This document shows positions 16,923 through 30,260 of a stretch of DNA of 64,000 bases, piece after piece. Made by a program: the position numbers and the translations under genes. Below the pieces are notes generated by a model. That model saw nothing but the letters and a program-made list of their open reading frames with translations, ran no database searches and was not told the origin of the DNA. The stretch lies in assembly GCA_022450155.1 (NCBI GenBank), contig JAKUQR010000004.1, positions 62,001 to 126,000 of the forward strand. The letters are read 5' to 3'. The DNA comes from Gammaproteobacteria bacterium (lineage in GTDB: Bacteria > Pseudomonadota > Gammaproteobacteria > Arenicellales > UBA868). Numbering within the stretch: position 1 is the first letter of the stretch; every line of letters begins with the position of its first letter.

Positions 16923-17465
16923 TTAGAGAAGGTGTGCCAACCAATCCGCGAGTTCAGTGGTTTGCAGCTCACCAGTTTTTCGGTATCGGAGCACACCGGT
17001 CCGGTCAAACACTAAAGTGAATGGCAGCTGTCCAGCACTGCCGTAGCGCTGCATGAGTTCGGGACCTGCGGTCGGGCCGATCAATGAGACATAGTTCAGA
17101 CCCACTTCATCCTCGAATCGGCGAACGGACTCGGCATCGTCGACCGCAATACCCACGACCTGAATCTTCTGCCCATAGCGTGCTTGCATTGCGATCAACA
17201 CGGGGATTTCAGTTCGGCAAGGTGCGCACCACGTGGCCCAGAAATTAAACAATACCACTTTGTTGTGAATCACTCGTGTCGACCATTCCTCTCCCGTGCT
17301 GGTAGGCAGGACAAACGGAATAATGGTGTCAGCCCCGGCGCCCAGGTCAGAGACAGTAGGCGAACGCAGCTGACTTACCCAGTACCCGCCAGCCGCCGCC
17401 GCCGCCACCGCCACCGCCAATACAAGCAGGGTGTAGACCACCAAGGATTTTCTTGGGTTGTCCAC
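16923..17465 (-). CDS. TlpA-like membrane-anchored thioredoxin
   Basis: This protein of about 180 residues has one N-terminal membrane segment (about residues 8-30) and a periplasmic thioredoxin fold. Its redox motif is WCAPC (about Cys80 and Cys83), followed by the TlpA/ResA-type EIPVL. The cis-proline loop QLPFTLVFD is present. Such proteins reduce or oxidise periplasmic disulfides, often in cytochrome c maturation. It follows dsbD by 7 bases, so it probably receives electrons from that transporter. I chose GTG at 17465; the longer frame to 17624 overlaps dsbD by 150 bases and adds no recognisable sequence. Confidence 0.86.
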   Translation of the reverse strand: MDNPRKSLVVYTLLVLAVAVAAAAAGGYWVSQLRSPTVSDLGAGADTIIPFVLPTSTGEEWSTRVIHNKVVLFNFWATWCAPCRTEIPVLIAMQARYGQKIQVVGIAVDDAESVRRFEDEVGLNYVSLIGPTAGPELMQRYGSAGQLPFTLVFDRTGVLRYRKTGELQTTELADWLAHLL

Positions 17466-17472
17466 TAGGATG

Positions 17473-19722
17473 TCAGATTCTAAGAGTCTTGAGCAGGGAG
17501 AGGAAGCGGTTCGGGTCAAGGTAGCCGTAGAGGCGTTTTGCAGACACTTCTTGACCTTGTGCGTCAAAAAACAGCAGCGCTGGGGGACCATATACGCCAT
17601 AGTTTTGCTTGATGGTCTTGCCAACCGGATCTGACGGATCCGTGACGTCTATTTTGAGCAGACGGAATCGGTTCAGAACTGTGCGTACCTGCAGGTTGCT
17701 AAATGTCGTTTTTTCCATGCGCAGGCAATCAGTACACCAGTCGGCATAAAAATCCAGGATCACAGGTTGTTCATCTGAGCGGGCGTCAGACAGCAACCGT
17801 TCAAGTTCGGCCACGCTTGTCACCGTGTAAAAATCAGGTTGGTCTTTTTCGGAGACAGCATCCTTCAGTACCTCCTCGCTAAACAGCGCTAAGCTGACGG
17901 GCTGCAGGATGTCGCGACCACCGTTCAAGCCGCCGATTATTGCCAACATCCCCCAGATGATGGAGATGGTACCCAAACCTTTCCAGGCGTAGCGCCACCG
18001 CAGCAGAGGTGCCTGGCTTTTGACGAGATAGATGCCAAACGTGATCAAGAGCGCCGCCCACAACAGTAGAACAGGTACAGCGGGTATGGTGCCAAGCAGA
18101 TAAATGGCAACACCAATCAGCATCACACCAAACAGATGGTTCACTCGATCCATCCAGGCACCAGCTCGCGGCAGCAAGACACCCGCACCGAAGCCGATGG
18201 CAATGAGAACCACGCCCATACCCAGCGCCATAGAAAACATCAGCCCAGCACCCAGATAGGGGTCACCATGGAAAATAGCGATGCTCAGCACTGAAATCAG
18301 CAGCGGTGACACACAAGCACCGACCACCAGTGCGGAGACAGCGCCGAGTAGAAAAATCATACCAAACGAACCGGTACTTAAACCGGTCGTACGCGCGGTC
18401 AGACTAGACTGCACAAAGGCAGGCATCTGGATCTCATAGAGGCCAAACATAGACAATGCCATCAGTGTGAGGATGATGCTGATCAAGCCGATTGCCCAGA
18501 TATTTTGGAAATAGGCTTGCAGTTGCTCCCCGGTCGCGCCTGCCACAGCACCGATTGCCGCATAGGTCGCGGCCGTCCCCAGTACATAGGCCACTGAAAT
18601 CGCACCACCCCGGAGGCGACGGGAAGTGCCGCCTTGACGTACGATGATACTGGAAAGAATCGGAATTAAGGGCAGTACACACGGCGTAAAGGTCAGCAGA
18701 AACCCTGTGACGAACGCGGCACCGAAAATAGCGATCAGGTTGCGGGCTGACAATGCCCCTTCAGCCGGCTCCTGCGCTTTGGCGTTCACGAAGCTGGGGA
18801 ACTCAATCGTCTGGGTTGTGCTCATGGGCGCATAGCAAATGCCCTTTTCGGCACAGCCCTGGTAATTGACGGTCAGGCTGAGTGTGTCAGCCATCAGGGC
18901 ATTTTTCTCGATCGGTACAATGACGCTACGACTAGTGAGGTAAACCTCAACCGCACCAAAATAAGGATCCTGTTTTACAGTGCCTGGCGGCAGGTCGAAT
19001 GCGCGAACTTGTGCGTTACCCTGCACTGCCTGGAAAGCGATTTTGTCACGATACAGGTAATACCCCGGTGCGATCTTGAAATGTACCGCCAGAGCGTTTT
19101 CGCCGGCGATTTCGATCTCCACCTGAAATGCATCATCGGGATCAAGGAATTCGGATACATCACCAGTGGCGGTCCCCAGCAGTTTCTGCAATTCAGTCGC
19201 GCTGCCCCCAGTGCTGGTCGACTGCCAACCCGTTTTGACTGAGCCAGAGCGCTCGTTGATTAACGACGACGTTGTGAGGGGGACGTCCATCCGGACACGT
19301 TGCGTCATCGGTGGATAACAAACGCCAACCGGTTTGTTACAGCCTTGACCTGCCGCCAGCAAGATCAATGGGCCGCCGATGAAGTGGTCTCTATCCAACG
19401 GCAGTGCGATGCGAATTGAATCGGTGTAAATCTCGGTCTCGCCAAAAAACTCATCGTGTTGGATGGTCCCGGCTGGATATTTAGGGTTACCCAGAACGGC
19501 TTGAACAGGTTCAGCTGTAAAGCCAAACTTACTGCGATACATGTAATAGCCCTCGGCGATCGTCCAGACGGCCTCGATCGTGTTCGGGTTGACCAGCGAG
19601 GCGTGGAACCTGAACGCTTGTTCAGCTGGAAGGAGTTTGCTGTCCTGCTGCGCCACCCCGGACAATGAAAACAGCATCACTGACAACAGCACTGACAACA
19701 GCAGGGCAGTCATCGTTTTCAT
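17473..19722 (-). CDS. dsbD: Thiol:disulfide interchange protein DsbD with duplicated N-terminal domain
   Basis: DsbD passes electrons from cytosolic thioredoxin across the membrane to periplasmic partners. Here it is about 749 residues, well above the usual 565-600. After a signal peptide come two DsbD-alpha domains, each with a cysteine pair: GCNKPVGVCYPP (about Cys128 and Cys135) and GCAEKGICYAP (about Cys290 and Cys296). Then comes the eight-helix transmembrane domain with the redox cysteines in TFTPCVLP (about Cys348) and VGACVSP (about Cys470). A C-terminal thioredoxin domain carries WCTDC (about Cys663 and Cys666). The duplication is real within a single uninterrupted frame. An upstream TTG at 19728 is an alternative start. 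The neighbouring TlpA-like protein is a plausible partner. Confidence 0.94.
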   Translation of the reverse strand: MKTMTALLLSVLLSVMLFSLSGVAQQDSKLLPAEQAFRFHASLVNPNTIEAVWTIAEGYYMYRSKFGFTAEPVQAVLGNPKYPAGTIQHDEFFGETEIYTDSIRIALPLDRDHFIGGPLILLAAGQGCNKPVGVCYPPMTQRVRMDVPLTTSSLINERSGSVKTGWQSTSTGGSATELQKLLGTATGDVSEFLDPDDAFQVEIEIAGENALAVHFKIAPGYYLYRDKIAFQAVQGNAQVRAFDLPPGTVKQDPYFGAVEVYLTSRSVIVPIEKNALMADTLSLTVNYQGCAEKGICYAPMSTTQTIEFPSFVNAKAQEPAEGALSARNLIAIFGAAFVTGFLLTFTPCVLPLIPILSSIIVRQGGTSRRLRGGAISVAYVLGTAATYAAIGAVAGATGEQLQAYFQNIWAIGLISIILTLMALSMFGLYEIQMPAFVQSSLTARTTGLSTGSFGMIFLLGAVSALVVGACVSPLLISVLSIAIFHGDPYLGAGLMFSMALGMGVVLIAIGFGAGVLLPRAGAWMDRVNHLFGVMLIGVAIYLLGTIPAVPVLLLWAALLITFGIYLVKSQAPLLRWRYAWKGLGTISIIWGMLAIIGGLNGGRDILQPVSLALFSEEVLKDAVSEKDQPDFYTVTSVAELERLLSDARSDEQPVILDFYADWCTDCLRMEKTTFSNLQVRTVLNRFRLLKIDVTDPSDPVGKTIKQNYGVYGPPALLFFDAQGQEVSAKRLYGYLDPNRFLSLLKTLRI

Positions 19723-25767: not shown

Positions 25768-27888
25768 CTAAAATTTGCCGTAGTAACCTTCTTTTAGGGC
25801 ATCAAACAGGTTGGCGGCCGTATGAGTTTCGCCATCGTATTCGATTTCTTCGTTGCCCTTGGCTTCGATCACCTCCCCGTTTTCCAGAGTGAAGCGATAC
25901 GTGGTGTTTTCCAGGTCTTCTTCTTTGACCAGCACGCCCTGGAAGGCATCCGGATTGAAACGGAAAGTCGTGCAGCCTTTGAGGCCTTTTTCGTAGGCGT
26001 ACATGTAGATATCTTCGAAATCCTCAAACGGGATGTCCGTGGGCACATTGGCAGTTTTGGAAATCGACGAATCTATCCATTTTTGTGCAGCGGCCTGTAC
26101 GTCGACATGCTGTTTGGGAGTGATGGTGTCGGCGCTGATAAAATAATCCGGTAGCGCATTGTTATCGTCGTCTGGCGCCGCCGCCGGGTTGACCAAGCGC
26201 CGATATTCCAGTAACTCAAACGACATGACATCGATTTTTTCCTTGGTTTTTCGACCTTCGCGTATGACGTTTCGGCTGTACAAATGGGCAAAAGACGGTT
26301 CAATGCCGTTGCTCGCGTTGTTCGCCAGGGACAAACTGATGGTGCCGGTTGGCGCGATAGAAGTATGGTGACTGTAGCGTGCACCGTGCTCAGCAATCTT
26401 ATCGGTAAGTTCATCAGGAAACTGTTGCATATAACGACTGTATTTCGCCATCAAGACAGACCCTCTAACACGGTCACCATTCTGATAACCATCGGCTTCC
26501 ATTTCAGGTCGTTTGGTCAGAATTTCTTTATCGACTGTAAACTCGTCCTGCATAATCGGGGCGGGTCCCTTTTCTATAGCGAGCTCAACAGCGGTCTGCC
26601 AACCGACCTCAGCCATTTCACGTGAAACGCGTTCAGTGAAAGCCAGTGAATCTTCACTGCCATACTTCATCTGCATCATTACCAATACAGAACCCAGACC
26701 CAGAAAGCCCATACCGTGACGCCGTTTATATTCGATCTCGTGTACTTGCTGACCAAGAGGCAAGCCGTGAATATCAACCACGTTGTCTAGCATGCGGGAG
26801 AATATACTGACGACGCGATGGAACCGTTCCCAATTAAAACGCACGCTCACTGAAAACGGTTGTTCCACAAAGCGGGTTAGATTGATCGAGCCCAGCAAAC
26901 AACTGCCATAAGGCGGCAAAGGTTGCTCGCCACACGGATTGGTCGCTCGAATCTCTTCACAGAACCAGTTATTGTTCATCTCGTTGATTCGATCAATCAG
27001 AATAAATCCCGGTTCAGCGTAGTCGTAGGTTGAGGACATAATCAAGTTCCACAACCGGCGAGCTGGCAACGTGCGAAAGACTTTGCAGGCGACCTCGCCT
27101 TTATCGTTGGTGACATAGCCCTCGCGACTGGGCCAGTGGCGCCAGGTGATCTTGCTCTCAGGATCATCAATTTCTGTTACCAGAGCAGGGAATAGCAGTT
27201 CCCAGTCGGCATCATTTTGTACTGCTTGCATGAACCCATCGGTAACCAAACACGATAGATTGAACTGCCGGAGTCGGCCGTTTTCCCGCTTAGACTGAAT
27301 AAAATCAACGATATCCGGGTGGGCGATGTCAAAAGTGCCCATTTGTGCGCCGCGACGGCCACCCGCAGAAGACACCGTGAAACACATGGCGTCAAAAATA
27401 TCCATAAAAGACAGCGGTCCGGAGGTGTAAGCGCCCGCGCCGCTCACAAAAGCGCCTTTTGGCCGCAACGTAGAGAACTCGTAACCAATGCCACAACCGG
27501 CTTTCAGTGTCAGACCGGCATCATGAACTTCAGTCAGTATGCCTTTCATTGAATCAGGGATGGTGCCAGACACGGTACAGTTGATCGTACTGGTCGCTGG
27601 TTTGTGTTCGCGAGCACCCGCATTAGAAATGATTCGGCCTGCTGGGATGGCGCCGTTTCTAAGCGCCCACAAAAATTCTTTATACCAGTGATCTTGTTTT
27701 TCACTGGTCTGTTCAACCGCAGCCAACGCACTTGCGACCCGCTTGAAGGTGTCATCGATGGTGCGGTCAATCACATGGCCCGACTTTGCTTTGAGCCGGT
27801 ACTTCTTGTCCCAGATATCAATGGACGCAGGTTGTAACTCAACCCCCGAGGCATCGGTCTTGCGCTGTTCCAGTGATGCCTTTGTCAT
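25768..27888 (-). CDS. nrdJa: Adenosylcobalamin-dependent ribonucleotide reductase, catalytic subunit NrdJa
   Basis: NrdJ reduces ribonucleotides to deoxyribonucleotides using a B12-generated thiyl radical and needs no oxygen. The 706-residue barrel has the substrate cysteine in TINCTVSGTIPDS, LKAGCGIGYEFSTLRP, the radical finger-loop motif NPCGEQPLPPYGSC with the thiyl cysteine and catalytic glutamate, and APTGTISL near the phosphate site. The B12 domain and tail are typical. Two NrdR boxes lie upstream. I see no nrdAB or nrdDG in the window. Confidence 0.95.
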   Translation of the reverse strand: MTKASLEQRKTDASGVELQPASIDIWDKKYRLKAKSGHVIDRTIDDTFKRVASALAAVEQTSEKQDHWYKEFLWALRNGAIPAGRIISNAGAREHKPATSTINCTVSGTIPDSMKGILTEVHDAGLTLKAGCGIGYEFSTLRPKGAFVSGAGAYTSGPLSFMDIFDAMCFTVSSAGGRRGAQMGTFDIAHPDIVDFIQSKRENGRLRQFNLSCLVTDGFMQAVQNDADWELLFPALVTEIDDPESKITWRHWPSREGYVTNDKGEVACKVFRTLPARRLWNLIMSSTYDYAEPGFILIDRINEMNNNWFCEEIRATNPCGEQPLPPYGSCLLGSINLTRFVEQPFSVSVRFNWERFHRVVSIFSRMLDNVVDIHGLPLGQQVHEIEYKRRHGMGFLGLGSVLVMMQMKYGSEDSLAFTERVSREMAEVGWQTAVELAIEKGPAPIMQDEFTVDKEILTKRPEMEADGYQNGDRVRGSVLMAKYSRYMQQFPDELTDKIAEHGARYSHHTSIAPTGTISLSLANNASNGIEPSFAHLYSRNVIREGRKTKEKIDVMSFELLEYRRLVNPAAAPDDDNNALPDYFISADTITPKQHVDVQAAAQKWIDSSISKTANVPTDIPFEDFEDIYMYAYEKGLKGCTTFRFNPDAFQGVLVKEEDLENTTYRFTLENGEVIEAKGNEEIEYDGETHTAANLFDALKEGYYGKF

Positions 27889-28021
27889 TTGTTGTTATTC
27901 CTTGAGTGGGGTAAAAGACCCGGCAGGCTGCGCCCTCAAAATTAAAGGGGTAGCCGGTTATTCACCACTTACTATTTACGAATCTGAAAACGCCACTTTG
28001 TTTGGGTAGGTCTGACCAATA

Positions 28022-28037
28022 ACACTATATGTTGTGG
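28022..28037. promoter_or_regulatory. NrdR box 1 upstream of nrdJa
   Basis: ACACTATATGTTGTGG closely matches the NrdR consensus (acaCwAtATaTwGtgt). Its centre is about 33 bases, roughly three helical turns, from a second box. It lies about 135 bases upstream of the nrdJa start. Confidence 0.75.
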
Positions 28038-28054
28038 CATTGAACAGAGCATAC

Positions 28055-28070
28055 GCCCAACATATTGTGC
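28055..28070. promoter_or_regulatory. NrdR box 2 upstream of nrdJa
   Basis: GCCCAACATATTGTGC matches the core and right half of the NrdR consensus. The tandem arrangement at about three helical turns is what NrdR, the ATP/dATP-sensing repressor of ribonucleotide reductase genes, requires. nrdR is not in the window. Confidence 0.7.
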
Positions 28071-28095
28071 CGGTCAACTTTTTTCAAGGGTGCGC

Positions 28096-28118
28096 AAAAA
28101 ATGCCCTAAAAAAGGGCT
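28096..28118 (-). terminator. Rho-independent terminator of the VWA protein gene
   Basis: On the minus strand the sequence GCCCT, five bases, AGGGC forms a hairpin followed by ATTTTTTG. It lies about 20 bases after the stop at 28134 and separates that gene from the nrdJ promoter. Confidence 0.75.
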
Positions 28119-28133
28119 TCGGTCTATAGGCGG

Positions 28134-30260
28134 TCAGGTGGTCAGACGCCGGTAGATCTCTGACACCTTGACCGGCAGTTGGTGTACATCGTCGACCACG
28201 GTGTAGTTGACTGCCCCGTACATGTGTGGCAGGTAGTCTCGTGCTTCGCGGTCGATGGTGATACAGAACGGATGTATGCCCGCCCGCTTGGCTTCAACTA
28301 GTGCTTGCCGAGTGTCTTCGATGCCATACTCACCGCGGTAGCCGTCATAGTCATCCGGTTTACCGTCGGACAAGGTGATTAAGAGGCGTGTCCGTGCCTC
28401 TATATTTTCAAACAGGTGAGTAAGGTGGCGGATCGTTACACCCATGCGCGTGTAGTCCTGCGGTTGGATGCCGGCGATACGCGCTTTGACTTCCTGGCCA
28501 TAGATTTCATCAATCCGCTTGATACGATAAAGCTCACAGCGTTTTCGAGTCATGCCCGAAAAGCCATAAATGGCATAACGGTCACCCAAAATTTCCAGGG
28601 CTTCGCACAGTAGCACCAGGCTTTCTCTTTCTGCGTCGTTGATCCAGCCCTTAGTCGAGCCACTGACGTCGACCATAAAAATCACAGCAATATCGCGTTC
28701 CAGCCGTTGCGGGCAGGTGAAGAGGTTTTCCGGCATCTCTCGGCCAGAAATGGCTTCGATTCTGGCTTCAATTGCGGCATCTAGGTCGATATCGTCCCCA
28801 TAAGCCTGTCGTTTCAGGCGTCGTTCACCACCGCGAAGTGCCTCAAAACTCCGACGAATTTCTGTGACTAGACCATGGTATTTTTCAAGCGTTTCCGCCA
28901 CAAACGGCTTGTCTACCGATCGCATATCGATTTCTCTCAGCACGCACCATCCTTTACGGTAGTGACGCCGTCGGAAATCCCATTCATCGTAGTGTAGTGC
29001 GCCTTCCTCACGGTAGGATCCTTTCCACATGTCTTTGGCGCTGCTGTCTTCTCTAGGACCTGCGTCGTAATCTCCTGCGCCGGCCGCGACGAGATATTCC
29101 GGTGGGATTTCATCTAGGTCCAGCAGCATCGACTGCAGAATCCGTTTGATATCGGCTGGAGTAGCCACAGGGTTGCCGTTTATCTCCAGCATCAACTCTG
29201 TCTCCCCGGTTGTGTTTTCCGGCGTCTGCAATTCAATTTGTCGTATTGCTGAATCATCCAAGGTTTGATCATCGCGCAGCAGTTCGCTTAGACGGACCTT
29301 GAGTTCTTCGCGATCCCGTTCCATTCGTATGGCGAGTACCTGTTCGGCGAGCTCGAGTTGAAGAGTTCCCTGCCAGGGTTGGGGAGCGGGCGCGGTGACT
29401 GAGCGAGGATAAATCAGCTTAAGTTGTTCAAGTGTCGTCTCGATGGTCGAGGCTGGTTCTTTGAGTGCAGATGTAGCATGTTGCCACTCGATAGCTGCAG
29501 GTTTGTCGCCAGTATTTTCTAGCAGAGTGTTCATCTGGCGCCACAAACCGGGTAACTCTCGTTTAATGCAAGCTTCAAGGCGTATTGATTCAAGTGCAAA
29601 AAATAGCGATAGCGCTCGTTGAGGCTCTGAATATTCAGCCAGGCGTGCTGACAGTGGTGGATCGTCCTGGGTTTGTTTTCGAAATGTGCCGAAGCGCGTT
29701 TGTGCCCAAAGGTAGGTTGTCATGAGTTTGTACAGCGAGAAATTGTTCTGTTTGTCACCATAACGGTTGAGCAGAGCTGGCAGGAAGAGCACTTCGGTAT
29801 CTGTAAATACTTCATTACTGGACTCAATGCGTAAAGACCGACCTGCCAGACCGCGGATGTAGTGATTAAGCACACCGACGGTATCGTCGAGGTGGACGGT
29901 AACCGGGCGCAGACTCTCTTCACGAGCGAAAGTATCAACGGCGGCGAAGGCTTCACTTCCGGGATAAAGACCCTGGCGGTCATAAACATCCATGGCGTTA
30001 ATGATCCAGTCCTCAACCTGCCTCAGATCCATAAACTCAAGAGCTCGCGCTGCGTGACGAACGAACTGAAAACCCATCTCGGAGTTGGTGCGGATGATGA
30101 CCTCTAGCCAGTGGAGAGCGAACTCCTGCTGTGTTCTGGTGCAGACCGACAGGGCCAGCGCGGGTTCCCGGGCCGTTCGCCTCGATGACAGGACCGCGTC
30201 GAGCATTTCATCGAAACGTTCTTCAAGTGCTTCAAAAGAAAAAGATTTTTGTTCAGGCAT
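28134..30260 (-). CDS. VWA-domain protein of the NorD/CbbO family
   Basis: This protein of about 708 residues has a long helical N-terminal half and a C-terminal von Willebrand A domain. The metal-dependent adhesion site starts with DVSGST (about residues 531-536) and continues with TLSDGKPDDYDG. A segment before it (YDEWDFRRRHYRKGWC) is characteristic of NorD and CbbO proteins. Those act with a MoxR-type AAA+ ATPase (NorQ, NirQ or CbbQ) to activate nitric oxide reductase or RuBisCO. The matching ATPase lies 2 kb away at 32277-33083, with three genes between. Neither a RuBisCO nor a nor gene is in the window, so the client is unknown. Start is ATG at 30260, with a TTG just before. Confidence 0.85.
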   Translation of the reverse strand: MPEQKSFSFEALEERFDEMLDAVLSSRRTAREPALALSVCTRTQQEFALHWLEVIIRTNSEMGFQFVRHAARALEFMDLRQVEDWIINAMDVYDRQGLYPGSEAFAAVDTFAREESLRPVTVHLDDTVGVLNHYIRGLAGRSLRIESSNEVFTDTEVLFLPALLNRYGDKQNNFSLYKLMTTYLWAQTRFGTFRKQTQDDPPLSARLAEYSEPQRALSLFFALESIRLEACIKRELPGLWRQMNTLLENTGDKPAAIEWQHATSALKEPASTIETTLEQLKLIYPRSVTAPAPQPWQGTLQLELAEQVLAIRMERDREELKVRLSELLRDDQTLDDSAIRQIELQTPENTTGETELMLEINGNPVATPADIKRILQSMLLDLDEIPPEYLVAAGAGDYDAGPREDSSAKDMWKGSYREEGALHYDEWDFRRRHYRKGWCVLREIDMRSVDKPFVAETLEKYHGLVTEIRRSFEALRGGERRLKRQAYGDDIDLDAAIEARIEAISGREMPENLFTCPQRLERDIAVIFMVDVSGSTKGWINDAERESLVLLCEALEILGDRYAIYGFSGMTRKRCELYRIKRIDEIYGQEVKARIAGIQPQDYTRMGVTIRHLTHLFENIEARTRLLITLSDGKPDDYDGYRGEYGIEDTRQALVEAKRAGIHPFCITIDREARDYLPHMYGAVNYTVVDDVHQLPVKVSEIYRRLTT

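Follow-up and report, generated by a model that had tools for sequence, protein, structure and literature searches.

What would a bacterium do with a DsbD that reaches into the periplasm with two alpha domains? In the DsbD pathway, electrons pass from cytoplasmic thioredoxin to the cysteines of the membrane domain, from there to the CxxC of the gamma domain, then to the alpha domain and finally to periplasmic clients, and the ScsB and CcdA-type transporters belong to the same membrane electron-transporter superfamily. The dsbD gene considered here lies in the window, by which we mean the whole 64,000-nucleotide stretch of a gammaproteobacterial contig that was analysed, and the original prediction for it was that two consecutive DsbD-alpha-like domains, both redox-competent, precede the membrane domain and could serve different substrates, for example the TlpA-like protein encoded next.

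A DsbD with a second alpha domain

The two domains were found as predicted. Pfam DsbD_N has two matches along the dsbD product (whole-protein E 2.5e-59), and in a profile search of the genome to which the window belongs both lie far above the cut-off of 25, the outer copy (D1) with 100.6 bits at window positions 19291-19641 and the inner copy (D2) with 106.8 bits at 18808-19152. The cysteine pairs assigned to them are also in place, C128/C135 as C-x6-C and C290/C296 as C-x5-C (Table 1). DsbD_TM follows with 226.9 bits, then a Pfam thioredoxin-like match at residues 639-721, so that the nDsbD, membrane and cDsbD parts of Escherichia coli DsbD recur in the same order. The NCBIfam DsbD model NF001419 is passed (568.6 bits, cut-off 330) and likewise matches in two stretches, the best of which covers residues 188-747, from D2 onward. 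The sequence hallmarks of a DsbD are therefore present, namely an alpha domain with its cysteine pair (here twice), a DsbD_TM domain with two conserved cysteines and a gamma CxxC, and the protein departs from the E. coli-type architecture of exactly one alpha domain by having two. This is a recurrent variant inside the DsbD family and leaves membership unaffected; by its sequence and predicted structure, the product is a genuine DsbD, ordinary in its D2-membrane-gamma part, that carries one additional alpha domain. The extra length had been put at about 150 residues, but compared with E. coli K-12 DsbD (565 aa, from a 1698-nt CDS) the 749-aa window protein is 184 residues longer. Since the genome (3.2 Mb, 95.5% complete) gives one DsbD_TM match and two DsbD_N matches, both of the latter in this gene, it is also the only DsbD detected there.

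Table 1. Features of the tandem-alpha DsbD locus, in window coordinates
Feature	Position	Strand	Size or basis
dsbD gene, tandem-alpha DsbD	17473..19722	(-)	749 aa
Putative signal peptide region, residues 1-25	19648..19722	(-)	hydrophobic N-terminus in translation
D1, outer DsbD-alpha domain, residues ~26-148, Cys128 and Cys135 (C-x6-C)	19279..19647	(-)	profiles, alignment, model
D1-D2 linker, residues ~149-187, short helix 175-181	19162..19278	(-)	low-confidence part of AlphaFold2 model
D2, inner DsbD-alpha domain, residues ~188-308, Cys290 and Cys296 (C-x5-C)	18799..19161	(-)	profiles, alignment, model
DsbD_TM membrane domain, residues 331-545, invariant Cys348 and Cys470	18088..18732	(-)	Pfam, alignment
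C-terminal thioredoxin-like (gamma) domain, residues ~630-748, Cys663-x-x-Cys666	17479..17835	(-)	Pfam, alignment, structure match
TlpA-like thioredoxin-fold protein, next gene, same strand	16923..17465	(-)	Pfam; start by eye, GTG at 17465

Either copy might still have been some other fold, and neither is: both match the profile and solved structures. Searched alone, D1 and D2 each find DsbD-alpha chains in the PDB (best 3.5e-17 and 4.6e-15, respectively), and in an AlphaFold2 model built from 51 tandem proteins (mean pLDDT 84.3) D1 exceeds 90 in every ten-residue block and D2 in most, with two blocks at 79 and 86. With a pTM of only 0.59, the model gives no reading of which copy docks on the gamma or membrane domain. 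Superposed with VIA-align, D1 (residues 27-148) fits 6dps_D (Z 17.2, rmsd 1.6, 117 aligned), D2 fits 1l6p (Z 16.9, rmsd 2.2, 119 aligned) and the gamma domain fits 2fwe (Z 21.9, rmsd 1.0, 119 aligned). Sequence and model together show D1 to be a complete second copy of the DsbD-alpha domain, catalytic hairpin and cap loop included. The ten-residue blocks between residues 151 and 190 average pLDDT 34-48, and the D1-D2 linker is probably flexible.

Two conserved active sites

In an alignment of 51 diverse tandem proteins, the four alpha-domain cysteines (Cys128, Cys135, Cys290, Cys296) never vary, and neither do Cys348, Cys470, Cys663 and Cys666. In a wider set of full-length domains, collected with a profile built from these loci and freed of exact but not of near duplicates, the pair is present in 75/75 D1, 74/74 D2 and 46/46 single domains. 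Because the pairs are invariant in both copies, both are very probably redox-active, as had been predicted, and the catalytic residues common to the two copies and their predicted fold point the same way. The first pair does have the extra residue that had been noticed, but this trait belongs to only part of the lineage, since D1 is C-x6-C in 53/75 and C-x5-C in 22/75; D2 is C-x5-C in 71/74, with two cases of C-x7-C and one of C-x6-C. Methylocaldum sp. 14B (L083) and a Methyloversatilis universalis MAG (L084), for example, share the tandem architecture and have a cysteine pair in both copies, but their D1 is C-x5-C whereas that of the window's group is C-x6-C.

The cap loop of DsbD is D68-E69-F70-Y71-G72 and its active-site cysteines are C103 and C109, according to PMC7347389. 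Both alpha copies of the window protein keep the active-site residues and the cap-loop frame of E. coli nDsbD, and in a thinned set Tyr42, Asp68, Gln101, Gly102, Cys103, Cys109 and Pro112 (E. coli numbering throughout) are invariant in 51/51 D1 and 51/51 D2. The differences lie close by: where E. coli has one alpha domain with Tyr100, the window protein has a second one ahead of it with C-x6-C and Gly at that position. Across the thinned set, position 100 is Gly in 26/51 and Ser in 16/51 D1 domains (G/S in 42/51), Tyr or Phe in 50/51 D2 domains and Tyr in 27/36 single-domain proteins, and cap-loop position 70 is F in 36/51 D1, compared with Y in 23/51 and F in 14/51 D2. Pairwise comparison of the window sequence with L032, L033 and L034, close relatives at 84-86% identity, gives dN/dS values of 0.20-0.23 (D1), 0.14-0.21 (D2), 0.09-0.16 (membrane domain) and 0.21-0.25 (gamma), D1 being similar to gamma in this respect.

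A redox-inactive or degenerate D1, left over from duplication, would sit well with the existence of relatives that have no D1, but we hold this to be very improbable: the cysteine pair stands in all 75 D1 domains and all 51 aligned proteins, dN/dS is about 0.2 and the fold is confidently predicted, so that conservation strongly disfavours such a reading.

Distribution, origin and loss of D1

The tandem form is recurrent in its class and no oddity of this genome. The relatives sample comprises 41 genomes, the window's own plus 40 more: both domains lie in one frame in 27, the tandem is interrupted by a contig or frame break in three (G011, G024, G037), ten have a single domain and one has no match. 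In the class sample, DsbD_N was matched in 168/185 genomes, and at least 37/185, from 34 families and not counting the window's own genome, have two matches within 800 bases. In the phylum sample, DsbD_N was matched in 44/90 genomes and the tandem only in the window's own and G052, that is, in 1/20 other same-class genomes with a match and 0/23 of other classes. A search that was biased to tandems, because it used a tandem query and patterns from both copies, gave 65 named loci, 51 with two domains, 11 with one (three of these cut by contig ends) and three with none; their titles suggest that the class in question is Gammaproteobacteria. The arrangement can thus largely be called common from the class and relatives samples, less so from the 1/20 of the phylum sample, but no published description of a tandem-alpha DsbD, let alone a characterised one, was found among the open-licence papers listed, judged by title and opening of the abstract, which is weak evidence as most subscription journals fall outside it.

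Two observations were made along the way. At L027 (G024) and L020 (G037), the tandem DsbD is split over two frames, either by real frameshifts or by assembly errors. Separately, G033:C12:36099 and G034:C9:53892 are weak DsbD_N matches in separate frames of 802-812 aa beside DsbD, which we take to be perhaps ScsB-like.

Where D1 came from was approached with domain trees, which rest on few columns. With IQ-TREE (138 rows), the window's D1 falls inside an all-D1 branch of 30 rows (support 100/93) and D2 rows intermingle with single-domain rows; the label D1 needs five changes, at least two of them forced by well-supported branches, and D1 forms one group in 0% of the bootstrap trees. With FastTree, 69/75 D1 cluster together with one single-domain row, a broken-tandem fragment, at a support of 0.68, and six D1 fall outside. 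These trees therefore do not establish a single origin of D1. The sequences do suggest that D2 corresponds to the ordinary DsbD-alpha and D1 to the extra copy, and D1 forms for the most part a lineage apart, distinguished by residues next to the active site.

D1 has also been lost in some relatives. The single-domain genomes of the window's family fall in two genera (g2, g6), and D1 is hence dispensable there. At three of their loci (L013, L017 and L030), the single domain scores 41-52% to D2 and 31-34% to D1, and a hydrophobic stretch leads, by eye, into an apparent D1-D2 linker. Another single-domain DsbD, at L074 in the sponge symbiont Candidatus Spongiihabitans (ORF start 5995), keeps ahead of the linker a short piece that by eye resembles the start of D1, an apparent in-frame internal deletion of that domain.

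These histories bear on the thought that the two domains are equivalent and merely raise throughput or local concentration, with no client specialisation. Shared catalytic residues and the loss of D1 in some relatives are what one would expect from such redundancy, but D1, largely a lineage apart in which residues of its own are frequent next to the cysteines, does not look like a drifting copy, and we consider this explanation unlikely.

Candidate clients and the two heads

The TlpA-like protein is indeed encoded just 3' of dsbD; its apparent GTG start (17465) lies 7 bases past the dsbD stop (window 17463-17475, by eye), a gap so short that the two genes are probably co-transcribed, and the downstream set tlpA, aroQ, accB, accC, prmA recurs in many relatives. 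As a dedicated client of the extra domain, TlpA fared less well. An adjacent TlpA was called (by blastp with the window's TlpA at E 1e-5, which could miss divergent ones) at 34/46 tandem and 4/8 single-domain loci (Fisher p 0.22), the census covering 54 of the 65 named loci after exclusion of the three contig-end fragments without DsbD_N and of eight whose ORF began at a contig edge or had <900 bases downstream. With 12/46 tandem loci lacking the neighbour and half of the single-domain loci possessing it, the neighbourhoods do not support the idea that TlpA accounts for D1. DsbC fares no better: DsbC_N is found in 37/41 genomes, 29/30 with a tandem (broken ones included), 8/10 with a single domain and 0/1 without DsbD_N, and its presence does not clearly follow D1.

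The window's genome has one DsbC_N match and 13 Redoxin matches, 11 of them over cut-off, although the Redoxin matches may include cytoplasmic enzymes. On its contig C26 (L158, ~27756-29435), genes for a CcmG-like (WASWCVSC), a TlpA-like (WATWCGPC) and a DsbC-like (CGYC) protein adjoin one another, and a further TlpA-like protein is encoded on contig C3; DsbC-like was assigned by Pfam DsbC_N, TlpA-like and CcmG-like by a Redoxin match plus motif, with CcmG called by eye. The partners given for E. coli nDsbD are CcmG, DsbC and DsbG (PMC7347389), and by analogy these proteins are plausible clients of the tandem DsbD, the C26 group being a likely cluster of them.

How, then, might two heads be used? 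Our leading model, held with moderate confidence, is a two-headed hub in which gamma would reduce D1 and D2 by turns and the two would work in parallel, with client preferences that overlap but are not identical, in a genome whose sole detected DsbD has several thioredoxin-fold proteins (DsbC-like, CcmG-like, TlpA-like) as candidate clients. It is favoured because the copy-specific residues adjoin the active site, a placement compatible with different substrates for the two domains. Against it stand the dispensability of D1 in two genera of the family and the fact that neither an adjacent TlpA nor DsbC clearly follows D1. One could instead imagine a relay in series, in which gamma reduces D2 only and D2 passes electrons to D1 as the outermost head; D2 does look like the lone alpha domain of an ordinary DsbD, and it adjoins the membrane domain, with D1 tethered through a low-confidence linker, but D1 keeps the catalytic residues and the cap-loop frame, so that its sequence presents no bar to direct reduction by gamma, and we know of no precedent for alpha-to-alpha exchange. 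We regard such a relay as rather improbable.

The model of parallel heads can be extended, more tentatively, to a broader picture that may well prove wrong, in which D1 would be a distinct and old DsbD-alpha subfamily with envelope clients of its own, two specialised heads would operate in many families of Gammaproteobacteria, and loss of D1 would mark the loss of that client branch. Since Methylocaldum sp. 14B is not labelled as a MAG, a cultured test organism may exist. On its sequence, tandem-alpha DsbD is a two-headed variant of the known DsbD, and the family name DsbD alone hides this second head. Recurrent in nature and conserved in both alpha heads, the tandem form gives a means of asking how DsbD picks its clients.
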